Shown here in pieces: positions 51,399 to 56,926 of a stretch of DNA of 64,000 nt. The position numbers and the translations under genes were made by a program. This DNA is from Clavibacter michiganensis (GTDB taxonomy: Bacteria; Actinomycetota; Actinomycetes; Actinomycetales; Microbacteriaceae): assembly GCF_002151125.1 (NCBI RefSeq), contig NZ_MDJZ01000005.1:124001-188000 (forward strand), read 5' to 3'. Within the stretch, counting starts at the first letter, position 1; the number at the start of each line of letters is the position of its first letter. The notes under the pieces are model-generated. The model searched no databases. It had not been told where the DNA came from and worked only from the letters and a program-made list of their open reading frames with translations.

Positions 51399-53294
51399 TC
51401 AGACCGCGACGGCGACCGAGGACGGGGCCGCGCCGGGCACCAGCCCGAGGCTCCGCGCCCGGCGCGACCGACGCGTCACGAGGTACGACACCGCGAGGCT
51501 CAGCAGCAGGAACACGGCGAGCACGCCGGCCGCTCCCCAGGCGAGGTCGGGCGCGCCGCCCGCGATGATCGCCTGCATGCCGGACGCCGCGTAGGTCAGC
51601 GGCAGGAAGGGGCTGATGGCCTGGAACGGCGCGGCCACGAGCTGGAGCGGCACCACCCCGCCGAGCGCCGCGGCCTGGACGGCCAGCAGGATCAGCGACA
51701 CCACGAGCCCGGCGCGGCCGAAGGCCTGGCGGAGCAGGTAGTGGATCGCCGTGAAGGCCGCCGCGGTGACGGCCGCGAACCCGAGGGTCGCGGGCAGCAG
51801 CGCGAGGGACAGGCCGAGCGCCGCGTGCACGAGCGCCACGAGCAGCACCACCTGGGCGAGCGCGATCAGGGCGGCGCGGGCGAGCACGCGCCCCATCACG
51901 CGGCCGGTCGCCGCCGAGGAGGCGAGCAGCCGGCGGGCGGCGGGACGCAGCACGAGGAAGGTCGCGAACGCGCCGAGCCACAGGCCGACGGGCACGAAGA
52001 TCGCGGCGATCGCGTCGCCCGGGCTGCCGATCTCGTTCTCGCGCTCCACCGTCAGGCCGACCGGATCCGCGACGACGCCCGATGCGGACGCGGCCTGGTC
52101 GGCGTCGAGCGACGGGATCTGCTCCGCGCCCTGGCTGAGCCCGGTGCCGAGCTCGGTCGCGCCGGAGGACAGCGCGTCCGCGCCGGTCGCGAGGTCGCCC
52201 GCGCCCGTGGCCGCGGAGGTCGTGCCCGTGCGGAGCTGGCCGAGCCCGTCGCTGAGCTGGCGGGCGCCGGAGACGAGCGCGCCGCCGTTGGCCGCGAGCT
52301 GCGACGCGCCGGACGCGCTCTGGCCGATGCCCTGCTGGACGCCCTGGATCCCGGCGGCCGCCTGGGTCGCGAGGGTCCGCCCCTGCGCCGCGTACTGGTC
52401 GAGCCCCTGCTCGAGCGGCTGGAGCTGCGCGGCGAGCGGTGCGGTCTGCGGGTCGGCCGACAGCTGCTGCCGGATCCCCTGCACCTGGGCCGCGATCTGC
52501 CCCGCCCCGCCCGCGTACTGACCGACCCCGTCGGACACCTGCGAGAGGCCCGCGGCCCCCGCCTGCAGCTGGTCGAGCCCCGAGGAGAGCTGCGAGACCC
52601 CGCCCGTGTAGGTGCCGAGGCCGTCGGCGAGCTGCGATGCGCCCTGCTGCGACTGCCCGACCCCGTCGCCGAGCTGCGTGATCCCGTCGCCGAGCGAGGT
52701 CGCGCCCTGCGAGAGCTGCGTGGCGCCGTCGGCGAGCTGGTCGGCTCCGTCGCCCGCGTCGGTCAGCGAGCCCTTGAGCCCGTCGAAGGTCGTGTAGATG
52801 CCGGAGACGAACTGCGAGGTGATCGCGTTGCCGAACACGCTCGTCATGCCGACGCCCACGGCCTGCGTCGCGGCGCCCGTCAGGTAGCCGTGCGCGTCGT
52901 CCGTCTTCACGCTGATCTGCGCGCGCTCGGGGGTCTCGGTCGACAGGGAGACGATGGAGGCGGAGAAGTCCTCCGGCACGGTCAGCACCGCGTAGACCTC
53001 GCCGTCGTCGAGCATGCGCTCGGCCTCGTCGGCGTTGGTGATGGTCCAGTCGAAGGCCTGGTTGTCGTCGGAGGTGAGCTGCGTGACGAGCAGGCGGCCG
53101 GCGAGCACGGGCGACTCGGTGCCGTCGGGCGCCGTCTGCTGCACGATCTCGTCCTGGTTGACGATCGCGGCGGGCACCCGCTCGACGCCCTCCGTGACGT
53201 CCGAGAGCGAGCCGATGAAGAGGCCGGCGACCGCGAGGGGCACGATCGCGACGAGGGCGACGGCGAGCCGTCGGCGTACGGAGCGGGTGGTCAT
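51399..53294 (-). CDS. YhgE/Pip-family membrane protein (ABC-2-type exporter-like)
   Basis: 631 residues. One helix at 12-32, a large extracellular part of about 380 residues rich in heptad- and undecad-like repeats of the form GxxQLxxGaxxL (QLADGATQLSQGATSLGDG, GVSQLSSGLDQLQAGAAGL), then five C-terminal helices like ABC-2 permeases (LWLGAFATFLVLRP, LLALVHAALGLSLALLPA, ISPFLPLTYAASGMQAII). This is the Pip/YhgE plan (phage-infection-type proteins, also linked to Esx-like or glycolipid export). It overlaps the MMPL gene by four bases and is the last gene of TetR-MMPL-Pip. Confidence 0.88.
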   Translation of the reverse strand: MTTRSVRRRLAVALVAIVPLAVAGLFIGSLSDVTEGVERVPAAIVNQDEIVQQTAPDGTESPVLAGRLLVTQLTSDDNQAFDWTITNADEAERMLDDGEVYAVLTVPEDFSASIVSLSTETPERAQISVKTDDAHGYLTGAATQAVGVGMTSVFGNAITSQFVSGIYTTFDGLKGSLTDAGDGADQLADGATQLSQGATSLGDGITQLGDGVGQSQQGASQLADGLGTYTGGVSQLSSGLDQLQAGAAGLSQVSDGVGQYAGGAGQIAAQVQGIRQQLSADPQTAPLAAQLQPLEQGLDQYAAQGRTLATQAAAGIQGVQQGIGQSASGASQLAANGGALVSGARQLSDGLGQLRTGTTSAATGAGDLATGADALSSGATELGTGLSQGAEQIPSLDADQAASASGVVADPVGLTVERENEIGSPGDAIAAIFVPVGLWLGAFATFLVLRPAARRLLASSAATGRVMGRVLARAALIALAQVVLLVALVHAALGLSLALLPATLGFAAVTAAAFTAIHYLLRQAFGRAGLVVSLILLAVQAAALGGVVPLQLVAAPFQAISPFLPLTYAASGMQAIIAGGAPDLAWGAAGVLAVFLLLSLAVSYLVTRRSRRARSLGLVPGAAPSSVAVAV

Positions 53295-56251
53295 CGGCGG
53301 GTCTCCTTGCCGGTCGTGACGGGCTGGTCGATGTCGGTGCGGTCGCCGGCGAGGTCGTCGCCCGCGTCCGGCGCGTCCGGCGCGTCGTCCGCGGCGAGGC
53401 GGAGGCGCACGGTCGGGCGGCCGGGGATCCCGTGCTCGTCCGGGAACCACGGCGCGCCCAGGACGACGGTCGTGCTCTCGTGCACGAGCGCGGGCAGGGC
53501 GGCGAGGAACGCGCGCTCGGCGGCGGCGTCCGGGAAGGGGTCCACCACGTCGAGCACGAGCACGGGGGCGCGTCCCGAGGCGGCCATCGCGGTGAGGGCG
53601 ATGGCGCGCTCGAGCGGGAGCAGGGATCCGACGGGGTCGTCGGCGGCGATGCGACCGGATCCCGCGGCGTCGGCCGCCTGGTCGATCCGCGCGAGCCACT
53701 CCGCCCGCCGCGCCCGGGCGCCGCGGCGGCGGCCCATCGGCTCGGACAGGTCGATGCGCTCGGCCAGGAGGTCGCCGACGGTGACGCCCGAGTCGACGCG
53801 GTCGACGCGGCCGAGGTCGGCCATGGCGACGCTCGTGAGCACGCGGCCGGCCTCGGAGGCGAGCGGGTGGCCGGCGACGTGCGCGCGGCCGGACAGCGGC
53901 GCGAGCCGGGCGCCCAGCGTCGCACCGAGGAGGCGGCGGTCGGCGACCTCGCCCTCGACGAGCACGAGGGATCCGGCCGGCGCGCTGAGGTCGACGGGCA
54001 GGAGCCGGCGACCCGGCGCGCCCACGACGAGCCGCTCGGCCGCGACGGCGGCGCCGGACGCGTGCGCCCAGTCGACGTCGTCCTGGTGCTCGCGGAGGCC
54101 CTCGCCCTCGATGTCCACGTCCGGCAGGATCCGGTCGAGCCAGCGCGGGATCCACCACGCCCGCTTCCCGAGCAGCGCCATGGCGGCGGGCACCAGGGTC
54201 ATGCGCACGAGGAACGCGTCGAAGAAGATGCCGACCGCGAGGCCGAGCGCGATGGTCTTGATCACGCCCGCGCCCTCGGGCACGAACGCCGCGAAGACGA
54301 AGAACATGATGAGCGCGGCCGCCGTCACGACGCGCGCCGCGCCCGAGAAGCCCGTGACGATGGCGCGCCTCGCGTCGCCGTGGTGCACGAAGTCCTCGCG
54401 CATCCCGGAGACGAGGAACACCTCGTAGTCCATGGCGAGCCCGAACAGGATCGCCATGAGGAGGATCGGCATGAAGCTGAGGATGGGGCCGGGCGTCACG
54501 CCGAGCACGTCGGCGAACAGGCCGTCCTGGAAGATCAGGACCACGGTGCCGAACGAGACGATGACGCTCAGCAGGAAGCCGACCGCGGCCTTGACGGGCA
54601 CGAAGATCGAGCGGAACACGATCATCAGCAGGATGATCGACAGCCCCACCACGACGATGCCGAACGGCACGAGCGCCTGGTCGAGCCGCTGCGAGATGTC
54701 GTTCTGCACGGCCGTGGTGCCCGTGACGGACACGCGCGTGTCGTAGCGGTCCTGCAGCCCGGGCGCGAGGTCGCGGATGGACTGCATGAGCGCCGTCGTC
54801 TCCGCCGACTCGGGCGCGCTGTCCGGCACGACCTGGATGATCGCGGTGTCGACCGACGGGTTCGGCGTGCCGGTGCCGACGAAGGCAACGTCGTCGAGGC
54901 CGCGGATCTCGTCGCCGATGTCCCCCAGCACCCCGATCGGGTCGGTGGTCTGCGTGATGTCGACCAGCACGACGAGCGCGCCGTTGTAGCCCGGGCCGAA
55001 CGCGTCCGAGACGGTGTCGTACGCGACGCGGCTGGTGGATCCGGCGGGGTCGGTCGCCCCGCTCGGCAGCCCCAGCTGCAGCTGCGACGCGGGGACGGCG
55101 AGGAGGCCGGCGATGCCGACGACGATGACGACGGGGATGATCGGCACCTTCGTGACGATCTTCACCCAGCGCGCGCCGAGCGTGCGCTGGGTGCCCTCGG
55201 CCTGCGCCTTCGCGCGGCGCGCGGCCCGCGAGCCCTCCTTCGGCCGGAGCCGCTCGCCCGCGAACCCGAGCATCGCGGGCAGCAGGGTCGTCGCGACGCC
55301 CATGGCGAGCAGCACGGCGAACGCCGCGCCGAGGCCCATGACCGTGAGGAACGGGATCTGGACCACGAGCAGCCCGAGCAGCGCGATGATCACGGTCACT
55401 CCCGCGAAGATCACGGCGCTGCCCGCGGTCGCCACCGCGGTCGCCGCCGAGCGCTCGACGGGCATGCCGTTGGCGAGCTGCGTGCGGTGCCGCATGAGGA
55501 TGAAGAGGGCGTAGTCGATGCCGACCGCCAGGCCGATCATCACGGCGAGCAGCGGCGACGCGCTCGACACAGTGACGAACCTCGCGGCGGCGAGCAGCGC
55601 GCCCGCGGACGCCGCGACGCCGACCAGCGCGCCGATGAGCGGCAGCCCGGCCGCGAGCATCGACCCGAAGGTGAGCACGAGCACGAGGCCCGCGAACAGC
55701 ACGCCGAACGCCTCCGTGACCGTGACGCCGTAGTGGATGTCCTGGAAGACCTGCCCCCCGAACGAGACGGTGAGGCCGGCGTCCGTCGCGGCCTGCGCCG
55801 ACTCCTTCAGCGCGTCGAGCGTGGCGGTCGTCACCTGGTCGCTCTGCCCGGCGAACTGGACGGTCGTGATCGCCACGGTGCCGTCGTCGGACACCGCGTC
55901 GGTCGCGTACTCGGAGAAGGGCGAGAGCGCCGTCTCGACGCCGTCGACCTCGCCCGCGGCCGTCGCGGTCGCCTCGATGGCGGCCTTCGGGCCGTCGTCG
56001 GTGACCCTCTCGCCGGCCGGCGCCTCGGTCACGATCTGCGCGCTCGCGCCCGCGGCCTGCGGGAACACGGCGGCGAGCCGGTCGATCGCCTCCTGCGACT
56101 CGGTGCCCGGGATCGAGAACGACTCCTGGGTCTTCCCGCCGAGCGCGAGGCCGCCGCCCAGCAGGATGCCGAGGACGAGGATCCACGCGGCGACGACGCG
56201 CCACGGGTGGAGGAACGAGATCCGGCCGAGCCGGTACAGAAGCGTGGCCAT
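53291..56251 (-). CDS. MMPL/RND transporter fused to a degenerate ABC-ATPase-like domain
   Basis: 986 residues. Two RND halves of the MMPL family: helix 1 at 17-37, extracellular loop, helices 2-6 with AVGIDYALFILMRHR near 250; second half with LFGLAMDYEVFLVSGMRE near 600 and the helix run to about 720. The C-terminal 250 residues, absent from MMPL, show an ABC-like order: LLPVDLSAPAGSLVLVEGE (Walker-A strand without the GKS/T loop), VTVGDLLAERIDLSEP, LLPLERAIALTAMAAS (signature-like helix), RAPVLVLDVVDPFPD (Walker-B-like). It likely cannot hydrolyse ATP. Proton-driven lipid or drug export with the YhgE partner is inferred. Confidence 0.88.
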   Translation of the reverse strand: MATLLYRLGRISFLHPWRVVAAWILVLGILLGGGLALGGKTQESFSIPGTESQEAIDRLAAVFPQAAGASAQIVTEAPAGERVTDDGPKAAIEATATAAGEVDGVETALSPFSEYATDAVSDDGTVAITTVQFAGQSDQVTTATLDALKESAQAATDAGLTVSFGGQVFQDIHYGVTVTEAFGVLFAGLVLVLTFGSMLAAGLPLIGALVGVAASAGALLAAARFVTVSSASPLLAVMIGLAVGIDYALFILMRHRTQLANGMPVERSAATAVATAGSAVIFAGVTVIIALLGLLVVQIPFLTVMGLGAAFAVLLAMGVATTLLPAMLGFAGERLRPKEGSRAARRAKAQAEGTQRTLGARWVKIVTKVPIIPVVIVVGIAGLLAVPASQLQLGLPSGATDPAGSTSRVAYDTVSDAFGPGYNGALVVLVDITQTTDPIGVLGDIGDEIRGLDDVAFVGTGTPNPSVDTAIIQVVPDSAPESAETTALMQSIRDLAPGLQDRYDTRVSVTGTTAVQNDISQRLDQALVPFGIVVVGLSIILLMIVFRSIFVPVKAAVGFLLSVIVSFGTVVLIFQDGLFADVLGVTPGPILSFMPILLMAILFGLAMDYEVFLVSGMREDFVHHGDARRAIVTGFSGAARVVTAAALIMFFVFAAFVPEGAGVIKTIALGLAVGIFFDAFLVRMTLVPAAMALLGKRAWWIPRWLDRILPDVDIEGEGLREHQDDVDWAHASGAAVAAERLVVGAPGRRLLPVDLSAPAGSLVLVEGEVADRRLLGATLGARLAPLSGRAHVAGHPLASEAGRVLTSVAMADLGRVDRVDSGVTVGDLLAERIDLSEPMGRRRGARARRAEWLARIDQAADAAGSGRIAADDPVGSLLPLERAIALTAMAASGRAPVLVLDVVDPFPDAAAERAFLAALPALVHESTTVVLGAPWFPDEHGIPGRPTVRLRLAADDAPDAPDAGDDLAGDRTDIDQPVTTGKETRR

Positions 56252-56298
56252 GGGCTTGTGGCTCTCCTTGCGTGGGGGCGTGCTGATGCGGTGCGGGG

Positions 56299-56877
56299 TC
56301 AGGCGGAGCGGGTGCCGAGGGGGGCGAGGAGCTCCCCCACGACCACGACGAGAGCAGCCCTGATCTCGTCGTCGGGCAGCGGTTCGTTGGTGGACCAGTC
56401 GTCGCTCGCGGCGAGGATGTACGCCGCGCCGCCGAGGGCGACGCCGAAGCGCAGCTGGTCCAGGGTGCTGTCGAGCGCACCGGCGGTCTCGCCCAGCGTG
56501 CGCACGAGGTCGTTCGCCCGCTCGATCACGGCGAGGTGCCCGAGCGAGCGGCCCTGCGTGATGAAGAGGGCCACCTCGTGCCGGTGCAGCAGGAGGAAGT
56601 CGATGAAGCGCTCGACGAACCCGCGACGCGCGTCGGCGTCGCCCTGGATGGAGTCGGCCCGGTCGATGATCTCGGCGAGCGCGTCGATCGTCGGCTCGAG
56701 CAGGGCGTCGAGCAGCGCCTCCTTGGAGGCGAAGTGGTACAGCACGCTCGACTTGGAGTACCCCGCCTCGTCCGCGATCTGCTGCAGCGACGTCGCCTGG
56801 AACCCGTCGCGGGCGAAGCGCGCCGCGGCGATGGGGCGCAGCTCGTCGCTCGCGGATGCGCGGGGGGTCCTGGTCAC
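56299..56877 (-). CDS. TetR-family regulator of the MMPL-Pip operon
   Basis: 192 residues. Classical TetR helix-turn-helix in the first 50 (ARFARDGFQATSLQQIADEAGYSKSSVLYHFASKEALLDALL), then a ligand domain of unknown type. GTG start. It is 47 bases upstream of the MMPL gene and the same strand, so the three form an operon that the regulator probably represses through the GACCGATCGGTC palindromes upstream. Confidence 0.92.
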   Translation of the reverse strand: MTRTPRASASDELRPIAAARFARDGFQATSLQQIADEAGYSKSSVLYHFASKEALLDALLEPTIDALAEIIDRADSIQGDADARRGFVERFIDFLLLHRHEVALFITQGRSLGHLAVIERANDLVRTLGETAGALDSTLDQLRFGVALGGAAYILAASDDWSTNEPLPDDEIRAALVVVVGELLAPLGTRSA

Positions 56878-56893
56878 CCGGCGAGCCTATGCC

Positions 56894-56926
56894 GACCGAT
56901 CGGTCAGGTCCTGCACGATCGGTCAG
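56894..56926 (-). promoter_or_regulatory. Operator repeats before the TetR-MMPL-Pip operon
   Basis: GACCGATCGGTC (56894-56905) is a perfect palindrome, and its half with flank recurs at 56916-56926 as CGATCGGTCAG, 22 bases on. Two helical turns separate the centres, fitting two regulator dimers. The site is 17 bases upstream of the TetR start codon. Confidence 0.72.

Follow-up and report, generated by a model that had tools for sequence, protein, structure and literature searches.

What can a domain built like the ATPase of an ATP-binding cassette (ABC) transporter do at the end of a proton-driven pump, once its ATP-binding motifs are gone? The question is raised by a locus within a 64,000-nucleotide stretch of Clavibacter michiganensis DNA (contig NZ_MDJZ01000005.1, positions 124,001 to 188,000), here termed the window, in whose coordinates all positions are given; every window feature described below lies on the minus strand. 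There, an MMPL transporter gene (986 amino acids including its tail, 53291..56251) encodes a transporter core (residues 1-734, 54050..56251) and an ABC-ATPase-like tail (residues 735-986, ordered over 735-955; 53294..54049), and is followed by the gene of a YhgE/Pip protein (631 amino acids, 51399..53294) with an ABC-2-type membrane part and xxxLxxG repeats. We think it probable that the MMPL-YhgE pair is a composite exporter, in which the dead tail is an adaptor holding YhgE to the proton-driven pump.

A degenerate ABC domain that has kept its fold

In fold and descent the MMPL tail is an ABC nucleotide-binding domain, in a degenerate form. Its predicted structure has the ABC ATPase fold with high confidence, its profile matches EcfA (e-value 3.8e-8, profile positions 3-217), and comparison of a profile of the family tails with seven separate ATPases that partner YhgE gave a probability of 99.7 and an e-value of 7e-26. 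A chance resemblance to ABC ATPases was rejected on the fold evidence. Residues 735-986 of the window's protein searched alone had no match in Pfam and gave only chance-level matches in a sequence search of the PDB. In the structure alignments, locus L247 was left out of both and L276 out of one.

The 121 loci of the family Microbacteriaceae (120 plus the window's) comprise 112 fused loci, in whose tails catalytic motifs were counted, seven stand-alone ATPases and two loci left out of the tail counts, one with an interrupted frame (L059) and one at a contig end (L172). At the Walker A position (residues 767-774, 53930..53953) the window's tail reads GEVADRRL in place of GxxGxGK[ST]. None of the 112 tails has the Walker A lysine (Arg in 107, Thr in 3, Ala in 2) or a GxxxxGK[ST] motif; the following position is Arg in 96, and the P-loop glycine preceding the lysine position is mostly replaced, most commonly by Asp, Ala, Ser, Glu or Arg. 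The signature-motif position (residues 877-882, 53606..53623) reads LLPLER instead of LSGGQ, and a string resembling LSGG or SGGQ occurs in 0/112 tails. The Walker B strand (residues 898-904, LVLDVVD, 53540..53560) keeps Asp901, an Asp in 97 of the 112, and lacks the catalytic Glu: the window has Val at residue 902, and hhhhDE is absent from all 112 tails. An off-site GxxxxGR[ST] close to the C-terminal end of two tails and a GKT at another site of the tail of L130 were not counted as motifs. The earlier note on this DNA, made from the sequence alone, had described an ABC-type tail devoid of a Walker A GKS/T; the predicted fold, the profile homology and the missing lysine all bear it out.

These counts also bear on the possibility that the tail still binds nucleotide, or slowly turns it over, at an altered site with Arg-Arg for Lys-Thr, and so acts as a sensor or a weak engine. 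The two arginines, R772 and R773, are conserved (107/112 and 96/112), Asp901 is largely kept (97/112), and GR[ST] replaces GK[ST] in 38 of 55 stand-alone ATPases encoded beside YhgE (see below); against this, the P-loop glycine is mostly replaced and neither an LSGG-like string nor hhhhDE is found in any family tail, and we regard this alternative as quite improbable.

While losing these motifs, the family tails have acquired a conserved pattern of their own, RR and GxPLPS. A further conserved pair, E831-R832 (53756..53761), lies on a putative permease-facing helix and is shared by dead, live-fused and stand-alone domains: E831 is conserved in 85% of the 112 tails, 96% of the 55 stand-alone ATPases and 100% of 14 fusions with an intact P-loop, and R832 in 92%, 85% and 100%, respectively. 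By analogy with other ABC ATPases, the pair would sit in the segment after the Q-loop position. ABC systems hold on to their permease through the nucleotide-binding domain, and the E831-R832 face may be where the tail meets YhgE.

Across six Clavibacter genomes (15 pairs; L059 left out), the dN/dS values of the pump core, the ordered tail and YhgE were 0.10, 0.11 and 0.14, respectively. Since its value is as low as that of the pump, the ordered domain is under purifying selection. The loose end of the tail (residues 956-986, 53294..53386), where pLDDT falls below 50 at model residues 230-233 and 235-252, had a dN/dS of 0.785. Among 18 Clavibacter genomes searched, the tail lies in one open frame in 15 (the window's included), is interrupted in two and is cut by a contig end in one. 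The interrupted frames belong to genomes G002 (L059, L020) and G006 (L021, L023, L247) and are candidates for either a real change or a sequencing error. That the tail forms a separate gene in congeners was considered and dropped after the family search and a re-reading of the congener frames. A decaying, functionless relic of an ABC ATPase could likewise have lost its motifs, be interrupted in two of the 17 congeners with the whole tail in view and be shortened in other lineages; yet the low dN/dS, the confidently predicted fold and the open tail with its new conserved pattern in 112 family loci largely refute this explanation, to which we give hardly any credence.

YhgE and the pump to which it is coupled

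The protein encoded behind the pump scores above the cut-offs of both TIGR03061 (123.7 versus 96.15 bits) and TIGR03062 (156.9 versus 102.2 bits) and is thus a YhgE/Pip protein; it contains eight stretches matching TIGR03057 (xxxLxxG). It also matches Pfam ABC2_membrane_3 (e-value 2.6e-16), in agreement with its earlier description as resembling an ABC-2 permease. A long helical, coiled-coil-like part (residues 167-391, 52122..52796) was modeled by AlphaFold as helices 167-247, 250-279 and 282-391, in a whole model with a pTM of 0.46. Foldseek searches with this model gave weak matches, to MmpL5-S5-AcpM (1.2e-4) and to an ABC-2 domain (3cni, 2e-3), amid rows of coiled-coil proteins.

The MMPL and YhgE genes of the window overlap by an ATGA stop/start (53291..53294), read directly from the sequence. 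The same coupling recurs well beyond the window, for a stop/start overlap in the YhgE frame is present at 103 of the 112 family loci (ATGA at 83, GTGA at 20), and YhgE lies downstream at all 112 as well as at nine of nine loci with shortened tails described below. We also compared 30 MMPL loci from 18 genomes. YhgE stands beside the pump in 13/13 fused loci, these having been found through their tails, and no YhgE gene was seen in 16 of the 17 unfused loci with 1.29-1.45 kb of downstream sequence in view; the remaining one, L371, with 50 bases downstream, was excluded from the count. In the unfused L378, a YhgE profile match (e-value 1e-6) falls inside the MMPL frame, at a coiled-coil-like insert, and we did not take it for a YhgE gene. 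The presence of a YhgE gene directly behind the pump wherever the tail was found suggests that both work as one export machine.

The MMPL core matches PF03176 in two stretches (e-value 2.5e-85; 286.8 bits against a gathering score of 20.5). Its two proton-relay pairs, D246-Y247 (55511..55516) and D608-Y609 (54425..54430), are Asp-Tyr in 51/51 fused and 17/17 unfused cores. According to an excerpt of PMC12803245, it is through these two pairs that MmpL transport is considered to be coupled to protons. With the Asp-Tyr pairs kept in all 51 fused cores and the ATP motifs of the tail lost, the pump has a complete proton relay but no intact ATP site.

The fused core has 734 amino acids, and nine of the 17 unfused MMPLs are 60-98 amino acids longer (832 amino acids for L377); inserts matching coiled-coil proteins were found in the four unfused MMPLs that were scanned, L377 of the window's genome included. 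The latter, the second MMPL of this genome (L241, C16:55000-68000; L377), shares 41-42% identity with the fused pump, has neither an ABC tail nor a YhgE gene in view, and carries its insert near residues 98-229. A coiled-coil domain is present in some MmpL proteins (PMC12803245, excerpt), and the long helical part of YhgE is of a similar kind.

A possible indication of the substrate comes from the response of Saccharopolyspora hirsuta to cholesterol, where the excerpted data of PMC9782250 report a YhgE/Pip gene (F1721_04135) up 3.8-fold and an MMPL gene with the consecutive tag (F1721_04140) up 3.3-fold. By analogy, this response hints at candidate hydrophobic, perhaps lipid-like substrates for the pair; that MMPL is known by family only, with or without a tail.

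Spread and history of the fusion

A search with the tail through 299 genomes of the family gave a match at e-value ≤ 0.001 in 127 of them, spread over 43 of 85 genera; separate ATPases count in these figures. Frames of about 900-1240 amino acids hold most of the strong matches, and frames of 230-380 most of the weak ones; all seven weak matches that were retrieved are separate ABC ATPases adjoining YhgE. The fusion is therefore widespread and not a peculiarity of one genome, as the earlier note had asked, even with the frame interrupted in 2/17 Clavibacter genomes.

The stand-alone ATPases retrieved elsewhere in the order and class also adjoin YhgE (23/23 in L204-L226, where L225 is a member of the window's own family; 19/19 in L284-L302). 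Among the 55 stand-alone partners, 11 have GxxxxGK[ST] and 38 GxxxxGR[ST], an SGG string is present in a single one, at a site other than that of the signature, and Asp is the commonest residue (82%) at the position of the catalytic Glu. Judged by these motifs, the stand-alone YhgE partners are odd, non-canonical ABC ATPases without LSGGQ. The separate-gene versions that the earlier note proposed to search for do exist beside YhgE, but the 'active ATPase' sought in them is not established, given the rarity of LSGG-like strings and the prevalence of GR[ST]. Two loci of family f35 (L350, L351) hold tandem ATPase-YhgE-TetR-ATPase-YhgE arrays, and in genome G1125 an unfused MMPL (L373) has a separate ABC ATPase-like frame downstream (e-value 8e-11).

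Beyond what the earlier note had predicted, some fusions turned out to have an intact Walker A. A class search of 296 genomes and family searches of 120 and 150 genomes recovered 14 MMPL fusions whose P-loop is intact, in 12 g213 genomes (family f45) and two g284 genomes (family f35); in one further g284 genome, G1089, the match was confined to a short frame. GxxxxGK[ST] is present, and YhgE lies downstream, in 14/14 of these fusions. In a third set of fusions, seven loci of genus g85 and two of family f9 (L227-L235) have tails of 168-223 amino acids without a P-loop, which lost part of the helical region; one of the nine carries an SGG string, off the signature position. A plasmid search with an intact fusion returned 125 partial-match records, none covering 80% of the query, and the annotated ones among the 15 matches listed are ABC ATPases.

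Trees were built on a selection from the 112 family loci together with L237 and L238 (31 family tails, 28 family cores), leaving L353 out of the nucleotide-binding domain tree for its short stretch and L369, L375 and L376 out of the core tree for their long branches. The fused pumps share a common descent: a branch with support 100/100 divides 51 fused MMPL cores from 14 unfused ones. Within the fused cores the live fusions do not form one group, a grouping seen in 2% of 200 bootstrap trees, and two of them are nearest to dead fusions. In the tree of nucleotide-binding domains all dead tails come together (SH-aLRT 91), which counts against two losses, long branches being a possible cause. On the core tree, which favours it, the simplest history would be one fusion with a live P-loop followed by two losses; a single loss of Walker A after one fusion was tested, gave an AU p of 0.113 and may also describe the history. 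Among the YhgE proteins, the 48 from fused loci split from the 34 accompanied by separate ATPases (SH-aLRT 96).

These relationships are relevant to another explanation, namely that the tail is a regulatory or oligomerization domain of MMPL alone, serving self-association or contact with another cytoplasmic protein, and that YhgE is merely co-transcribed. The persistence of short tails in g85 and f9 would suit such a role, as would the acyl carrier proteins that co-purify with mycobacterial MmpL4 and MmpL5 in the excerpt of PMC12803245. The nearest relatives of the tail are nevertheless ATPases encoded beside YhgE, the tail and the YhgE gene co-occur in the loci checked, and the YhgE tree sets the proteins of fused loci apart from those accompanied by stand-alone ATPases; we hold a purely regulatory tail to be unlikely, while granting it appreciable weight.

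Upstream of the pump, the window encodes a TetR-family regulator of 192 amino acids (56299..56877; TetR_N, e-value 1e-13), preceded by a probable TetR operator consisting of two GACCGATCG-centred sites upstream of its start (56890..56925). Both GACCGATCG sites, in the same arrangement, match exactly in five of six congener loci scanned, and none was found in L058. TetR lies on the same strand in 107/107 family fusion loci where it was detected, none being detected in the other five of the 112. It was detected in 9/12 intact fusions of f45, always on the opposite strand, and a TetR-like frame is likewise on the opposite strand in 9/9 short-tail loci of g85 and f9. The neighbouring TetR may control the MMPL-YhgE operon of the window.

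Proposed mechanism and comparison with known systems

The tail derives from the nucleotide-binding domain of an ATPase subunit of a YhgE-type ABC system. We propose that a single fusion event in an actinobacterial ancestor joined it to the pump; in the lineage of the window it has lost its ATP-binding motifs and kept its fold. With the motifs lost but the fold kept, the tail is most likely a fixed adaptor for YhgE. It would hold YhgE, with its ABC-2-type membrane part and long helical hairpin, against the MMPL pump, and export would be powered by the proton gradient through MMPL. YhgE would add a second membrane part and probably also, in trans, an envelope-spanning coiled-coil extension that the fused MMPL lacks.

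Several points weigh against this adaptor role. Operon coupling by itself could reflect co-regulation, the structure predicted for YhgE is weak (pTM 0.46), with poor matches in the PDB, and the tail frame is interrupted in 2/17 Clavibacter genomes with the whole tail in view. Moreover, as the tails of g85 and f9 are cut to 168-223 amino acids, docking does not require the whole surface in every case. A broader reading, which we put forward as speculative and rather unlikely, is that of an actinobacterial class of mixed-origin exporters, with an RND-type (resistance-nodulation-division) pump and an ABC ATPase in one polypeptide acting on a YhgE permease; those of g213 might be powered by both ATP and protons, and those of other lineages, Microbacteriaceae included, by protons only, the ATPase having become nothing but a scaffold, on two occasions should the best tree be correct.

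Primary transport, driven by ATP, and secondary transport, driven by protons, are usually assigned to separate machines, and the fusion joins parts of both. With a P-loop intact in some genera and dead in others, it offers a natural series on an ABC engine domain no longer burning ATP, which also bears on how MMPL pumps recruit partners; the live fusions make it possible to test the idea of a machine with both ATP-driven and proton-driven ancestry. The poorly understood YhgE/Pip family gains a concrete partner and a testable role. No MMPL-ATPase fusion is described in the open-access literature searched, in which two papers mention both YhgE and MMPL, subscription papers lying mostly outside this scope. 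The MMPL, YhgE/Pip and ABC domains are known singly, and the novelty would reside in their combination.

The window's pump shares the MMPL domain and both Asp-Tyr pairs with the MmpL/MMPL RND transporters (MmpL3, MmpL4/5) and, unlike them, bears a fused C-terminal ABC-type domain. Its operon partner is YhgE, whereas that of MmpL4/5 is MmpS (PMC12803245, excerpt). The window's YhgE, above both cut-offs of the YhgE/Pip family (phage infection protein; EsaA relatives), also matches the EsaA N-terminal model, at an e-value of 1.7e-9 and below the cut-off of that model; its gene, unlike theirs, is coupled to that of an MMPL pump to which a nucleotide-binding domain is fused. Pip itself is reportedly known through phage-infection work (PMC4999554). 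The stand-alone actinobacterial YhgE-partner ATPases belong to the same domain family, with an LxxLER-like motif and an Asp-rich style of Walker B, and are likewise found beside YhgE, but they are separate genes with a G[KR][ST] P-loop, whereas the window's tail is fused and has lost its P-loop. The g213 and g284 proteins have the same fusion, YhgE downstream and cores grouping with that of the window, and differ by their intact GxxxxGK[ST] (14/14). Degenerate nucleotide-binding domains that have lost their catalytic motifs and kept their fold are found in ABC transporters, for instance as one half of asymmetric exporters; those domains sit in ABC transporters, whereas the dead domain of the window sits on a proton-driven RND-type pump.
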